Notes: generated by a model not told the origin, from the sequence alone. Shown: positions 22,267 through 29,259, counted from the stretch's first letter. The stretch: DNA of 64,000 bases from Colwellia sp. 75C3 (GCF_002836255.1 NZ_PJAU01000061.1:248001-312000), one strand, 5' to 3'. Numbers and translations are program-made.

Positions 22267-23736
22267 CTACCAACTAAGTTTTTTTCGATACAGTGTCGAT
22301 GGACTTACTTCAAGTAATGCCGCTGCTTGAGGAATATTTCCTTGGCAATAATTTATCGCATTTTCAATGGCGGTTTTCTCCGTCAACCATAACGGTATTA
22401 TTTCAGTTTGATTATTGGCGGGTATCGCAGTTGACGTTTTTTCAATGGTGGTATCAGACCGTTTTTCCGACTGAATTGCAGGTCTTGTTACCCTACCCGA
22501 TACCGGTAAAATATTATCAGATAAACCAACCGTGCTCGATAAAGCCTTGATAATCATCTCACTGGTAAGCTTCTCGCCGGTATTTAATATTACCATGCCG
22601 TGAATAATGTTTTCTAGCTGCCTAATGTTGCCTGGCCAATCGTATTGGCAAATAATTTGAAGACAGCCCTTTGAAAATCGGATAAATGATTTATTTTCAA
22701 TCTTACTGTATTTTTTAAGAAAGTAACGGGCAATTAATACAATATCTCCACCGCGATCTCTTAATGGTGGTAAACAAAAGGTAATAACGTTTAGGCGATA
22801 ATAAAGATCCTCTCGAAAATCACCATCTAACACCGCTTGTCTTATCGAATTTGAAGACGCTGAAATAAGTTGCGCATGAAATTTTTCTAATTTATTCGTG
22901 CCCAGCGGGGTAAACTCACGTTCTTGAACGACCCGCAGTAACTTAGCTTGAAGTGTTTTTGATAAGGTCGTTATTTCATCTAAAAATAACATGCCGGATT
23001 TAGCTGCTGCAAATAGTCCTTCCTGCGAAGCAGTAGCCCCAGTAAATGCACCTTTTGTATGGCCAAATAACTGCGACTCCATTAAGTGCTCGGTAAAGTT
23101 AGCGCAGTTAACGGCTATAAAAGGCTGGTCTTGCTGATAACTTTCTTTGTGACATGCTTTAGCCACTAACTCTTTACCGGTACCTGTTTCACCCGTTATA
23201 AAAATAGGCGCATTCGTTGTCGCCGCATGACGAATACTCACAAATAGTTCTTTCATCGCCTCATCAGCTGCGACAATGCCATGAAAATTTATCGGCTCAT
23301 TGATAAAGTCTTTTTCGGCGACTTCCGTACTTTTCAATGGGGTATTATCTAATGCCTTAGTAACAATGAACTTTAACTCTTTATTATTCCACGGCTTGCA
23401 TATAAACCTGTCGACTGTACCTGAATTAAAGGCTTTCGATATTTTGTCAAAATCTTGATGCGCTGACAAAATAATGCGTTGAGATTGCGGCCATAGTGCT
23501 TTAATTTCATGTAAAAAGGCACACCCTTCTATTTCTGGCATCTGTTGGTCAGAGATAACAATTTCGGGTTGGTTGTGTTGACAATAATCCAATGCCGCAA
23601 GCGCAGAACTAAAGCTTTGAATGTTTATAGGTAGTCCACGTAAAACCCTTTCCAAGGCCGTAAGGATCTCTGGTTCATCATCAACCAACACCAGTAGCGG
23701 TAAACATGTATCTTGGGTTTCGTTAGCTATATTCAT
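22267..23736 (-). CDS. Sigma54-dependent response regulator (REC-AAA-Fis)
   Basis: 489 residues from ATG 23736; an in-frame GTG at 23757 adds seven residues. The receiver (about 12-130) has LVLVDDEPEIL and Asp in VISDQQMPEIEG. The AAA+ domain (about 160-390) has Walker A GETGTGKELVAKA, the sigma54-contact loop GAFTGA, Walker B GMLFLDEITT and arginine fingers near FREDLYYRLNVI. The Fis-type helix-turn-helix is at the C-terminus (AINYCQGNIPQAAALLEVSPSTLYRKK). It activates RpoN promoters when phosphorylated. It is divergent from the other receiver protein at 23918 and lies directly after the polysaccharide cluster, so regulation of that cluster is plausible but not shown; no cognate kinase is adjacent. 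Confidence 0.92.
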   Translation of the reverse strand: MNIANETQDTCLPLLVLVDDEPEILTALERVLRGLPINIQSFSSALAALDYCQHNQPEIVISDQQMPEIEGCAFLHEIKALWPQSQRIILSAHQDFDKISKAFNSGTVDRFICKPWNNKELKFIVTKALDNTPLKSTEVAEKDFINEPINFHGIVAADEAMKELFVSIRHAATTNAPIFITGETGTGKELVAKACHKESYQQDQPFIAVNCANFTEHLMESQLFGHTKGAFTGATASQEGLFAAAKSGMLFLDEITTLSKTLQAKLLRVVQEREFTPLGTNKLEKFHAQLISASSNSIRQAVLDGDFREDLYYRLNVITFCLPPLRDRGGDIVLIARYFLKKYSKIENKSFIRFSKGCLQIICQYDWPGNIRQLENIIHGMVILNTGEKLTSEMIIKALSSTVGLSDNILPVSGRVTRPAIQSEKRSDTTIEKTSTAIPANNQTEIIPLWLTEKTAIENAINYCQGNIPQAAALLEVSPSTLYRKKLSW

Positions 23737-23917
23737 ATGAATTACTTGTCTTTGCACTTGGTATGTTTAAGTCTAGGACAATTTTCGCATTTTGCTAAAA
23801 ATCATTTGCAATATAAGAATATTGTTAATAACTAAATAATTTTTAAAGAAAATCTTCTATTCTGGCGTGAAAGTATTATATTAGAGTTATAAATTGGTAA
23901 AACCTAAGGATGACGAA

Positions 23918-25213
23918 ATGAGCAAACCGGCTTTACTGGTTATTGATGATGAAAAGGAAGTTCTAAACGCACTAAATAGAGCCTTAAGAAAAGAATTTGA
24001 ATTATTCCTTTTTTCTGATCCCATTGCTGCGCTTGAATTTTATCGAGATAAGCCAACGCCGTTAGTCTTGTCTGATATGAGAATGCCTACGATGGATGGT
24101 GCGACTTTATTAGGCCATATTAGTGAAATTAACCCTAGCTCGAAGCGATTCTTATTAACTGGCCATGCCGATATAAATCTAACGGTTGCCGCCGTGAATG
24201 AAGGGAAAATTAGTCACTACTTTGCCAAACCATGGGATAACGTAGAGCTTATTGCCGAATTGAAAGATGCTTTTACCGTCTATTTATCTGAATTAAGTAC
24301 CAAGAAATTACTCAGAGTGAATAAAGAAAAAAATGCCAAACTCTCTTTAATCAATAGCTCTATGGAGCTCGAAATTAATAAGAGTAAAAAGAAACTTGAT
24401 TTAATCTCCACAAAAGAAGCAAAAAGCTTTGCCCGTTTAAAGAAAACTTTTAATACCTTTGTTGGCATATATGCCAACAGTATTGCGTTGCATAATGAGG
24501 AATACAGCCAGCACAATTATAGAATTGCCTCACATGCTCGTTACATCGCCGAGTTACAAGGTTGCGATAAATTAACCAGTTATCAAGTATACATCGCTGG
24601 TTTATTATATGAGGCAGGAAAAATAGCATTACCGCAAAAGCTGCTTAGAGGCCCTTATGACCAACTTAATCATCAAGAACAATCACTCTTTGATAGTTTT
24701 TACCAAACAGGTGCTGATTTATTAAGTGATGTCGATGAACTTTCTTTTGTTGTTGAAATAATTAAGCATATCCCTGAGCGCTATGATGGCTCAGGACTAC
24801 CTGAACATTTAAATGCTGACGACATACCTCTTGGCTCTCGTATTCTCGCGCTTGTAACTCATTTTGATAATCTAGTGATCGGTAGACAACAATTAGTGCC
24901 AGTATCAGTAACGGAAGCAAAAGAAAGGTTGGCTAAAATGGCAGGAAGCCGCTTTGACCCTAAGTTGCTATCAATATATCTTGATATGCTATCAGCAGTT
25001 CCTGAGAGCAATGCAGCGAGTAACCTAGAATTTCCAATAGATTTAATGCAATTATGCGAGGGCTTAATATTAACGCAAGACATTGTAAACAGCTCATCAA
25101 GTGTATTGTTAACAAAAGGCACTGTCATTGAGCAAAGTCATATAGATAAGTTAATAGAGATCAGTGGTGAACGGGACGAACAGTTCTCGGTATTTATTCA
25201 AAATCGAGTGTAA
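23918..25213 (+). CDS. Response regulator with degenerate HD-GYP domain
   Basis: 431 residues from ATG 23918 with AAGGATGA just upstream; the in-frame TTG at 23894 is not needed. The receiver domain (3-125) has VIDDEKEVL and Asp in LVLSDMRMPTMDG. A helical linker (about 130-185) is followed by an HD-GYP-like domain. The first His (SQHNYRI) and the late motif are recognisable, but HD of LLHDIGK is replaced by YE (LLYEAGKIALP), GYP is GLP (RYDGSGLP), and the last metal Asp region reads ALVTHFDNL. Metal binding, and so c-di-GMP phosphodiesterase activity, is probably lost. It may act by protein binding. The receiver resembles that of the divergent sigma54 regulator, so one kinase may address both. 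Confidence 0.88.
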   Translation: MSKPALLVIDDEKEVLNALNRALRKEFELFLFSDPIAALEFYRDKPTPLVLSDMRMPTMDGATLLGHISEINPSSKRFLLTGHADINLTVAAVNEGKISHYFAKPWDNVELIAELKDAFTVYLSELSTKKLLRVNKEKNAKLSLINSSMELEINKSKKKLDLISTKEAKSFARLKKTFNTFVGIYANSIALHNEEYSQHNYRIASHARYIAELQGCDKLTSYQVYIAGLLYEAGKIALPQKLLRGPYDQLNHQEQSLFDSFYQTGADLLSDVDELSFVVEIIKHIPERYDGSGLPEHLNADDIPLGSRILALVTHFDNLVIGRQQLVPVSVTEAKERLAKMAGSRFDPKLLSIYLDMLSAVPESNAASNLEFPIDLMQLCEGLILTQDIVNSSSSVLLTKGTVIEQSHIDKLIEISGERDEQFSVFIQNRV

Positions 25214-25867: not shown

Positions 25868-26773
25868 ATGAAAAAACAAAACTTTATATTTACTTTTATC
25901 ATTATTTTAATATCCGCTTGTGAGCGACAGCCTACTGAAAAAAACCTGCAATACAGTACCTCACCTACTGAGAGTGAAATAGTAACCTATCGGTTAGCTA
26001 TACATCCCTTACACAACCCCCAGAAGCTGTTCGAATCTTATCAGCCACTCGTTGACTATATTAATCAAGAAATCCCCACTATTTACATAGAACTTGAAGC
26101 ATCTCGAGACTATCCAACCTTTGAAAATAAATTTCGCGCTCGCGAGCCTGATTTGTTATTACCTAATCCATGGCAAACATTGCAAGCAATGGATAATGGT
26201 TACCATGTTATCGCTATGGCTGGAGATGCTAAAGATTTTAAAGGTATATTCATTATTCGAAAGGATAATACACTTAAGAAACCTTCAGAATTGAAGGGAA
26301 AGCGGGTCAGTTATCCTGCTCGTACCGCACTTGCTGCGGCTATTATGCCGCAATTCTTTTTACATAATAATGGTATTGATACCAACAATGATATTGATAA
26401 TATTTATGTTGGGTCGCAAGAATCATCGATAATGAATGTTTATCTAGGTAATGTTACTGTCGGTGCAACTTGGCCACCACCATGGCGGTTATTTCAAAAA
26501 GACCATCCAGAACAAGCTAAGCAGCTCAAAGTAATTTGGCAAACGCCCCCCCTGATCAATAACTCAGTAATGGTACGTGATGATTTTCCTGATGCTATTA
26601 GTAAACAAATACAGCATTTAATTGTTAATTTAACAAAGTCAGCACAAGGTAAGGTCATTCTAACTGGCATGGAAACAGCTCAATTCACTCTGGCTAAAGA
26701 TGAAAGCTATAATGTTGTTCGCAGGTACATAAAACGCTTTGAAAAGAAGGTGCGACTCGTGGAAGGTAATTAA
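25868..26773 (+). CDS. PhnD-like substrate-binding lipoprotein (orphan)
   Basis: 301 residues from ATG 25868; an in-frame TTG at 25856 is not needed. A lipoprotein signal ends LISAC (Cys about residue 17). The mature part matches the phosphate/phosphite/phosphonate-binding (PhnD) branch of type II periplasmic binding proteins: YRLAIHPLHNPQKLFESYQPL at the first strand, DLLLPNPWQTLQAMDNGY, then LKGKRVSYPARTALAAAIMPQ and the second-lobe VGATWPPPWRLF. The stop overlaps the start of the GGDEF/EAL gene by 1 base, and no ABC permease or ATPase is adjacent. This argues that it reports ligand to the neighbouring c-di-GMP enzyme and does not serve in uptake. The ligand is unknown; many PhnD-like orphans do not bind phosphonates. 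Confidence 0.88.
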   Translation: MKKQNFIFTFIIILISACERQPTEKNLQYSTSPTESEIVTYRLAIHPLHNPQKLFESYQPLVDYINQEIPTIYIELEASRDYPTFENKFRAREPDLLLPNPWQTLQAMDNGYHVIAMAGDAKDFKGIFIIRKDNTLKKPSELKGKRVSYPARTALAAAIMPQFFLHNNGIDTNNDIDNIYVGSQESSIMNVYLGNVTVGATWPPPWRLFQKDHPEQAKQLKVIWQTPPLINNSVMVRDDFPDAISKQIQHLIVNLTKSAQGKVILTGMETAQFTLAKDESYNVVRRYIKRFEKKVRLVEGN

Positions 26774-29166
26774 TGTTTAAAACACTGCAACAATTAATGT
26801 TAGGAACATTACGTCGTCAAATGATTGTTGGAATGACAATAATCGTGACACTAATGATGGGACTATTTGTCTGGAATACGACGCAGCGTCAACAAACAGT
26901 AAAGATTGAGCAATATAAAGACCAAGCTATTGCCATTGCTGATAGTTTAGCGACTTCGTCTGCTATTTGGGTCGCTTCGCGAGATTTTAGTGGCCTTCAA
27001 GAAATAGTTAACGGTGTATCGCATTACCCCAATTTAAGTCATGCCATGGTCTTAGGTTTACGTGGTCAAATTCAAGCGCATACTGATCCAAGTAAAGTTG
27101 GCTTATACATTAATAATCTTCCCCAAGATAACAATAATCAACTTATACAATTTTCAACTGATAGCATTGATGTTACAAAGGCCATAAGACTAACTGAACG
27201 TAAAATTGGTTGGGTTATTATCGGTTTAGATAGGAAACTTTATATTGACGAAATTACGGAAATAAAAATAAAGAGTGTTTATTATGCACTCACATCCATC
27301 TTTTTTGGTGTTTTTATAACCACTTTAGCTAGTCGTTATTTAACCCGTCGCCTATATGTTATTCAAAAGGTAGCAGATGAAGTTCAAGAAGGAGCTCACC
27401 ACCTACGTGTAAACATGCAAGGAACGGATGAAGCAGCGTTACTCGCCAAACAGTTTGATAGTATGCTCGACAGCCTAGCGCTAAGGGAAGCGCAATTATC
27501 GTCATTTTATTCACTTGATTTAGTTGGCTTAACCATTACATCGCCAGAAAAAGGTTGGATTAGTATAAACGCTTGTTTATGCACTATGTTGGAGTATTCA
27601 GAACAAGAACTGCAAAAAATGACTTGGGTTGATTTAACTCACCCTGAGGATTTAGAAGCTGATGTTGAACAGTTCACCAAATTACTAGCCAATGAAAGTG
27701 ATGGTTACAGCTTGGAAAAACGTTTTATTAGTCGAACAGGTAAAGTGATCGACACTATGTTGGTGGTACGTTGTGTTCGTAAAGACGATGGCAGTGTTGA
27801 TTATTTGGTCGCAATGGTACAAGACATCAGTCAACAAAAAGCCGATGCTATCCAAATAGAGCAACTCGCTTACTTTGATCCCTTAACTGAATTACCGAAC
27901 CGACGATTATTGCATGACAGGTTAAACCAAGCATTAGTTTTTAGTGATCGTAATCTGCACTATGGTGCCTTGTTATTTCTTGATTTGGACAATTTCAAGA
28001 CACTGAATGACACTTTAGGTCATGACATTGGTGATATGTTATTACAACAAGTTGCCAAACGATTAATTTCGATCACCCGTGAGGGTGATACGGTGACTCG
28101 CTTTGGTGGTGATGAATTTGTCATTCTATTAGAAAACTTACATAAGAATGCCGTTATTGCAGCAGCAGAGACTAAGACTATTGGAAATAAAATTTTGGCG
28201 ACGATCAACCAGCCTTATAATATTGCAGGTCATACTTATATTAGTAGTACTTGTATTGGCGCCTCATTATTTCTAGGACATCAAACAACCCCTGATGAAT
28301 TACTAAAACAAGCCGACATATCTATGTACCAGGCAAAAAAGGCAGGCCGAAATGTTTTTTGCTTTTTTGATCCTCAAATGCAGAGCACTATTACCAATAG
28401 AGTAGCACTTGAACGTGATTTACTCTACGCACTAAAACATCAACAATTCCAACTATACTATCAAGTACAAGTAGATAGCTCAAACAGACCTTTAGGTGCA
28501 GAGGCTCTGATCCGTTGGATTCATCCTGAACGTGGAATAGTGCCACCTTTTAACTTTATTCCATTAGCAGAAGATACTGGCATTATCATCGAAATAGGTA
28601 AATGGGTGATCGAAAGTGCTTGTATTCAACTTAAGCTTTGGCAGAAAAACAGTAACACTGCCGTGTTATCACTATCAATTAATGTTAGTGCAAAACAATT
28701 CCATCAAGCTGACTTTGTTAAAACAATTATAAAAATGATCGATGTCCATGATATTAATCCATCACTGCTTAAAATCGAGTTAACCGAAAGCTTGTTATTG
28801 ATAAATATAGAAGAAATTATAAATAAAATGAATTCATTAGCTGAAATGGGTATTCAATTTTCATTAGATGATTTTGGTACCGGTTATTCATCATTACAAT
28901 ACCTCAAGAAATTGCCTTTATATCAACTTAAAATTGATCAGTCATTTGTGCGTGATCTTGGTATAGATAGTAACGATAAGATTATTGTTAAGACAATAAT
29001 CTCGATGGCACATAGCTTAGGGTTAAATGTGATAGCAGAGGGTGTAGAGAATGAAGAACAGCAACAATACTTAATAAGCCAAGGATGTATTAATTTTCAA
29101 GGTTATCTCTTCAGTAAACCCGTGCCAATTAAAGAATTTGAACGCTTAATCGAAAATGATATCTAG
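26773..29166 (+). CDS. Membrane GGDEF-EAL protein with periplasmic sensor, HAMP and PAS
   Basis: 797 residues. TM1 about 16-36, a periplasmic domain of about 125 residues, TM2 about 170-190, HAMP about 192-240, PAS about 245-355, GGDEF about 365-530 and EAL about 540-790. The GGDEF site is intact (TRFGGDEF) and REGD five residues before it forms the inhibitory RxxD site. The EAL domain has GAEALIRW, NVSAKQF, ELTES, the DDFGTGYSSL loop and EGVEN, so both synthesis and breakdown of c-di-GMP are possible. The start overlaps the stop of the binding-protein gene (TAATG), so they are made together. The likely model is a binding protein docking on the periplasmic domain and setting the balance of the two activities, as described for NspS-MbaA in Vibrio; here it is inference. 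Confidence 0.93.
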   Translation: MFKTLQQLMLGTLRRQMIVGMTIIVTLMMGLFVWNTTQRQQTVKIEQYKDQAIAIADSLATSSAIWVASRDFSGLQEIVNGVSHYPNLSHAMVLGLRGQIQAHTDPSKVGLYINNLPQDNNNQLIQFSTDSIDVTKAIRLTERKIGWVIIGLDRKLYIDEITEIKIKSVYYALTSIFFGVFITTLASRYLTRRLYVIQKVADEVQEGAHHLRVNMQGTDEAALLAKQFDSMLDSLALREAQLSSFYSLDLVGLTITSPEKGWISINACLCTMLEYSEQELQKMTWVDLTHPEDLEADVEQFTKLLANESDGYSLEKRFISRTGKVIDTMLVVRCVRKDDGSVDYLVAMVQDISQQKADAIQIEQLAYFDPLTELPNRRLLHDRLNQALVFSDRNLHYGALLFLDLDNFKTLNDTLGHDIGDMLLQQVAKRLISITREGDTVTRFGGDEFVILLENLHKNAVIAAAETKTIGNKILATINQPYNIAGHTYISSTCIGASLFLGHQTTPDELLKQADISMYQAKKAGRNVFCFFDPQMQSTITNRVALERDLLYALKHQQFQLYYQVQVDSSNRPLGAEALIRWIHPERGIVPPFNFIPLAEDTGIIIEIGKWVIESACIQLKLWQKNSNTAVLSLSINVSAKQFHQADFVKTIIKMIDVHDINPSLLKIELTESLLLINIEEIINKMNSLAEMGIQFSLDDFGTGYSSLQYLKKLPLYQLKIDQSFVRDLGIDSNDKIIVKTIISMAHSLGLNVIAEGVENEEQQQYLISQGCINFQGYLFSKPVPIKEFERLIENDI

Positions 29167-29225: not shown

Positions 29226-29259
29226 CAAAAAACCGCAACTTAAGCAAGTAGCGGTTTTT
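29226..29259. terminator. Bidirectional rho-independent terminator
   Basis: AAAACCGC and GCGGTTTT pair, and inside them ACTT/AAGT also pairs across AAGC. The stem is preceded by A-runs and followed by T-runs, so it can stop transcripts from the GGDEF-EAL gene and from gltD. Confidence 0.85.

Follow-up and report, generated by a model that had tools for sequence, protein, structure and literature searches.

Why does the gene for a substrate-binding protein (SBP) of a phosphonate-transporter type stand directly before the gene for a membrane enzyme of c-di-GMP metabolism? The question is raised by two adjoining genes in the window (the whole stretch of 64,000 nucleotides of Colwellia sp. 75C3 DNA that was analysed), the first encoding a PhnD-fold lipoprotein and the second a receptor with both GGDEF and EAL domains (Table 1). 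According to the original prediction, they form a ligand-to-c-di-GMP signalling pair analogous to NspS-MbaA, with an SBP of a different family. In Vibrio cholerae and Sinorhizobium meliloti, NspS-MbaA consists of a periplasmic SBP and a membrane GGDEF-EAL enzyme that function independently of transport (PMC8967002, PMC5646818).

The physical arrangement is as predicted. The coordinates confirm that the two genes share one base in a TAATG, and a ribosome-binding-like GGAAGG is located within the SBP gene, directly 5' of the second ATG. The unit is closed by an intrinsic terminator, which was found by folding and is absent from the list of the pattern scan. In that scan, promoter-like sites at the pair were no more frequent than in shuffled sequences, and we therefore claim no promoter. 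The absence of a transporter also holds, with no ABC transporter gene within ~5-9 kb on either side; the neighbourhood consists of two response regulator genes, genes for sugar and cell-envelope functions, and gltD/gltB. One of the regulators, of the NtrC type (REC, AAA+ and a Fis-like C-terminus; 22267-23757, minus strand), has no adjoining histidine kinase gene and is divergent to the other (23894-25213, plus strand). The latter carries an HD-GYP-like domain with seemingly degenerate metal-binding motifs (YEAGK in place of HDxGK and HIPERYDGSGLP in place of HHExxDGxGYP) and is probably a non-catalytic, c-di-GMP-related protein. We considered whether these upstream regulators (22267-25213) work together with the pair and left them out of the unit, because similar genes occur at only 3 of the 80 loci of the survey described below.

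Table 1. Features of the two-gene unit, with positions counted from the first letter of the window
Feature	Position	Strand	Basis
PhnD-fold substrate-binding lipoprotein gene, 301 aa, proposed ligand sensor	25868..26773	+	ATG 25868, TAA 26771-26773
Lipoprotein signal peptide up to lipobox Cys18	25868..25921	+	sequence MKKQNFIFTFIIILISAC; MKKQNFIFTFIIILISA-C18
TAATG stop/start overlap	26771..26775	+	base 26773 common to SBP and GGDEF-EAL genes
Membrane receptor gene sCache-HAMP-PAS-GGDEF-EAL, 797 aa	26773..29166	+	ATG 26773, stop ending 29166
Putative TM helix 1, ~aa 17-36	26821..26880	+	hydrophobic stretch; helix 13-68 in model
Periplasmic sCache domain, aa 45-156, proposed SBP docking site	26905..27240	+	Pfam sCache_3_2 3.4e-13, 50.3 vs 28.4 bits
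Putative TM helix 2, ~aa 168-190	27274..27342	+	hydrophobic stretch; helix 155-205 in model
HAMP, aa 186-235	27328..27477	+	Pfam 8.9e-5, 23.2 bits, just below the 25-bit cut-off
PAS domain, aa 264-347	27562..27813	+	Pfam PAS_3 2.1e-9
GGDEF domain, GGDEF and I-site intact	27868..28353	+	Pfam 9.8e-45; sequence REGDTVTRFGGDEF
EAL domain, catalytic residues intact	28414..29121	+	Pfam 9.8e-70; EALIRW, DDFGTG etc.
Intrinsic terminator closing the two-gene unit	29228..29259	+	hairpin -14.1 kcal/mol, z -5.1, U run at end (folding)

The lipoprotein signal and the two-lobe pattern expected of the SBP are both intact. The lipobox cysteine (C18) is aligned in 91 of 92 family members, and the AF2 model (pLDDT 86.6) shows the two lobes of a class II binding protein. 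In Pfam the SBP belongs to PF12974 (Phosphonate-bd, 1.1e-49), the only other match being a weak one to NMT1, and the structures nearest its model are PtxB (Z 27.9), PhnD (27.0), ArrX (26.5) and AioX (24.9). It is not a member of the polyamine (PotD-like) family, since Pfam and the nearest solved structures (PhnD/PtxB/ArrX) point elsewhere. The Pfam and NCBIfam names denote ABC phosphonate transporters, as would suit a former transporter SBP, orphaned by the loss of its permease and placed beside the enzyme by accident. We regard this as highly improbable: the scores fall below the NCBIfam cut-offs (70.5 vs 261.1 bits for the PhnD equivalog and 91.9 vs 112 for TIGR01098), the real transporter of this genome has its own SBP and, as described below, the adjacency is found again in practically all relatives, whichever of the two proteins is used as query. 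The genome's canonical PhnD-type paralogue has a GSTSG motif and is followed directly by ABC ATPase and permease genes, which makes it a clean internal contrast to the SBP of the window. At that locus (L045, 3592-6692), the ATPase is accompanied by one long permease (503 aa) that appears to hold two permease domains in tandem. In comparison with the transporter SBPs PhnD, PtxB and HtxB, the window's SBP has the same fold (Z 26-28), Pfam family and class II type, but it lacks a phnC/phnE partner, the S-T-S/H oxyanion ligands and a PhnD equivalog score. The transporter-type control, a Lactiplantibacillus phnCEE locus, was quite different from the window pair.

The oxyanion ligands of PhnD and AioX have Tyr, Tyr, Ser, Ser and His in common (PMC5908839). 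In our SBP family, a profile alignment places Y82, F124, A154, A156 and Q184 at the equivalent positions, identical in 92 of 92 members; family-wide, S-T-S is replaced by A-L-A, H by Q and Y by F. From the oxyanion site of PhnD, whose residues we take to be numbered Y47, Y93, S127, S129 and H157, only Y47 is kept, as Y82. The AioX residues Tyr88, Cys106, Tyr131, Ser161, Ser163 and His192 correspond to Y82, N100, F124, A154, A156 and Q184, so that the AioX set is not found here either, the window's SBP differing at S161, S163, H192 and Cys106 among others. Since this pocket is lost throughout the family, the term 'PhnD-like' denotes a fold and not a ligand: as a description of the fold it is borne out by Pfam and AF2, whereas as a claim of phosphonate sensing it has to be given up. 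The automatic 'phosphonate ABC transporter SBP' names are probably wrong for this group. Judging from the pocket residues, the ligand is probably a non-oxyanion, different from those of PhnD and AioX. H46, N100, W202, W206 and N232 are also identical in 92 of 92 members, and the loss of the oxyanion-binding hydroxyls, with Y82, F124, W202, N100, Q184, N232 and H46 kept, might hint at a neutral or an aromatic/cationic organic ligand instead of a phosphonate-type oxyanion.

The same residues bear on whether the SBP binds a ligand at all. It could be an obligate subunit that binds no ligand and, as a lipoprotein with a structural or stress-sensing role, fixes the receptor in one state, which would agree with the lost oxyanion residues, with the invariant lipobox that anchors the SBP to a membrane and with its obligate pairing. 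We find this rather unlikely, as the cleft does not appear to have decayed, with Y82, N100, F124, Q184, W202, W206, N232 and H46 identical in 92 of 92 members as in a working site, and the two-lobe fold is intact.

In the receptor, the expected periplasmic domain, HAMP, PAS and intact GGDEF and EAL sites are all present. The Pfam scores of sCache_3_2, PAS, GGDEF and EAL exceed their cut-offs, with HAMP just below, the RxxD inhibitory site is readable as REGD, and so are all the catalytic residues of the EAL domain (EALIRW, N, E, DDFGTG, K, E in AEGVE and Q in QGY). The layout is that of an sCache receptor, with a single periplasmic cache domain between two TM helices and then HAMP, and the AF2 model of the N-terminal module shows the cache domain between two long helices (pLDDT 90.3). 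Residues W66, D71, G74, E77, G146 and W147 are conserved in the family. The crystal structure nearest this module is the citrate sensor CitA (Z 15.6 over 120 residues); a crosslink-based integrative model of the WalK complex scored above it (Z 17.9), as did an engineered citrate sensor, within a tie. Such a resemblance to the ligand-binding domains of CitA/DcuS (Z 13.7-15.6) would be expected if the cache domain were the real sensor and the SBP merely handed over the ligand or tuned its affinity. An obligate SBP partner is, however, unusual for a self-sufficient cache sensor, and we think this explanation unlikely; still, that the cache domain could bind a ligand alone is a point against the reading we prefer, in which the SBP itself is the ligand sensor. 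The NCBIfam models nearest the receptor, below cut-off, are phosphodiesterases such as DibA, which slightly favours a net phosphodiesterase activity in one state.

We surveyed genomes for PhnD-like genes located directly before GGDEF-EAL genes, as had been proposed for this locus. A search with the SBP only, in 369 genomes of the class, returned 12 strong matches (the window and others at 42-58% identity) of at least 237 bits, the next match having 102 bits. In all 12 loci the gene directly 3' of the SBP encodes a protein homologous to the N-terminal module of the window's receptor. In an independent set of 398 genomes from the phylum, 13 SBPs matched strongly, that of the window among them, and the receptor was present in 13 of 13. 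The SBP subfamily is sharply separated and occurs in ~3% of the sampled genomes of both class and phylum. While a single-sequence scan of genome contigs with the SBP yielded no confirmed relative, 455 were recovered from the GTDB species collection when the scan was based on an alignment. The best 80 were kept; they belong to the beta-, gamma-, delta- and zeta-proteobacteria, to Nitrospirae and to other phyla, the last as metagenome-assembled genomes. Among these best 80 of 455, a TM-sCache-TM-HAMP receptor module lies directly downstream of the SBP in 79 loci, and the genes overlap by -1 nt in 33/79 and by -4 nt in 37/79 (together 70/79). The sole exception (L125, 5885-5900), in which the SBP gene ends in TAATG and is followed by unrelated sequence with the receptor gone, is a decayed or rearranged pair. 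When the class genomes were searched in reverse, with the receptor module as query, 13 strong matches were obtained, each with an SBP upstream (one cut by the contig end), and these counts are not fully independent of the preceding ones because some loci are common to several collections.

Gene order, and usually the overlap too, is thus kept in the great majority of distant relatives, which is more than chance. No recurrent ABC-transporter family was found beside the family pairs. Distances between SBPs follow those between receptor modules (r = 0.78 over 91 pairs, with a permutation maximum of 0.26), a correlation that partly reflects shared ancestry and joint transfer. Given this reciprocal, phylum-wide linkage, the geometry of translational coupling and the correlated divergence, it is very likely that SBP and receptor form a functional pair, and to this extent the original prediction of a signalling pair built on an SBP family other than that of NspS stands. 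Among the best 80 of 455, the closest relatives of the window pair are L046 (68% for the SBP, 70.5% for the full receptor) and L054, both with a GGDEF-EAL output. Within the genus, no SBP orthologue was found in the 38 congeners searched, and its role is therefore dispensable there, which counts against the signalling model. This absence first suggested a recent import of the pair; its base composition is native, so that recent transfer is not supported. On plasmids, no match exceeded 30% identity among the matches listed.

For more distant PhnD-fold proteins, found with the same query at 24-31% identity, the next gene likewise encodes in most cases a kinase with HAMP or a GGDEF protein. In Vibrionaceae plasmid loci whose SBP is annotated as that of a phosphonate transporter, the next gene is an 'ATP-binding protein', probably a kinase. 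On plasmid p319 of Vibrio coralliilyticus (L141, 3986-8759) and on a Salinivibrio kushneri plasmid (L140, 4001-8092), a distant PhnD-fold SBP with this annotation and a probable histidine kinase gene lie beside EAL-domain genes, in the Vibrio locus with Hpt and HD phosphohydrolase genes also adjoining; each is a possible phosphorelay-to-c-di-GMP cluster.

The outputs of the 79 receptors (best 80 of 455) are exchangeable: a histidine kinase in 37, GGDEF in 12, GGDEF-EAL in 11 and HD-GYP in 4, with 10 receptors being PAS-only and 5 of the 79 ending at a contig edge before any output domain. The PAS-only receptors (L047, L079, L085, L088, L099, L100, L102, L104, L112 and L123; 388-707 aa) have a cache domain, HAMP and mostly PAS and then end, with no recognised output domain; perhaps they signal via a separately encoded downstream kinase. 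On the SBP tree, the output class has to change at least 23 times, and at least 11 times between histidine kinase and c-di-GMP types, counts that are approximate because the tree is a quick one with many weak branches; even when restricted to strongly supported branches, it requires the kinase label to change at least 5 times. What stays constant is thus the SBP with the TM-cache-TM-HAMP module, while the output that they drive varies, as one would expect of an SBP that acts on the periplasmic module. The idea of a ligand-to-c-di-GMP pair consequently fits the window, where the partner is a GGDEF-EAL enzyme, but not the family as a whole, in which c-di-GMP is one of several outputs and the histidine kinase is the commonest (37/79).

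The use of this fold in sensing is not new, as fused PhnD-like sensor kinases of the TtrS/ThsS type are already known in hundreds, with 838 listed (PMC5408782). There too a PhnD-like domain serves as the periplasmic sensor, but it is fused to the kinase, whereas the window encodes it as a lipoprotein of its own, whose partner contributes a cache domain in addition. In AioX-AioS, a PhnD-fold SBP used for sensing is encoded with a membrane receptor; according to that work (PMC5908839), no members of the PhnD-type family other than the AioX orthologues act in signalling. Our pair resembles the arsenic-sensing AioX/ArxX/ArrX XSR modules in this combination and in structure (Z 24-26.5), yet there the SBP is partnered by a histidine kinase and a response regulator, not by a GGDEF-EAL protein; the window has no such cluster, its upstream regulators not being conserved with the pair. 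As in NspS-MbaA, the SBP gene adjoins a membrane GGDEF-EAL gene with no transporter alongside, and the ligand-dependent switching between diguanylate cyclase and phosphodiesterase in that system is the parallel that we propose. NspS is related to the ABC-type polyamine SBPs (PotD family), while the window's SBP has the PF12974/PhnD fold and is a lipoprotein, invariably so in its family, and the window's receptor family, unlike NspS-MbaA, also comes with histidine kinase and HD-GYP outputs. In Vibrio parahaemolyticus, ScrB-ScrC combines an SBP-like protein with a GGDEF-EAL enzyme in a three-gene operon that includes a signal synthase. For the activation of a diguanylate cyclase/phosphodiesterase by an SBP, PMC11113362 cites Trimble and McCarter 2011. 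In a census of c-di-GMP sensing, PBP-clan domains were common in the networks and SBP_bac_3 alone had been studied (PMC8846402). A search of the open literature returned nothing relevant on PhnD-type SBPs with GGDEF/EAL partners, and the combination of a separate lipoprotein, a cache receptor and interchangeable outputs appears to be undescribed in it, with ScrB-ScrC as the main reservation.

From the sequences and by analogy with these systems, we think it quite probable that the lipoprotein and the receptor are one signalling unit. According to this model, the SBP would sample a small periplasmic ligand and, once closed or loaded, would dock on the receptor dimer at its membrane-distal cache domain. 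From there the signal would travel via TM2, HAMP and the PAS linker, shifting the balance of diguanylate cyclase (GGDEF) versus phosphodiesterase (EAL) activity. Docking, gating by the ligand and the regulation of c-di-GMP are the steps that we infer.

It is likely, in our judgement, that the pair belongs to a large two-gene 'plug-in' sensor family, in which a repurposed PhnD-fold lipoprotein and a cache receptor have been attached repeatedly to histidine kinase, diguanylate cyclase, phosphodiesterase and HD-GYP outputs in several phyla. If so, many proteins now annotated as SBPs of phosphonate transporters would be receptor subunits. The pairs offer a large and clearly delimited set for the study of the sensing module and, since one such module drives several outputs, the ligand, the docking and the coupling to the output could be studied separately, also by domain swapping.
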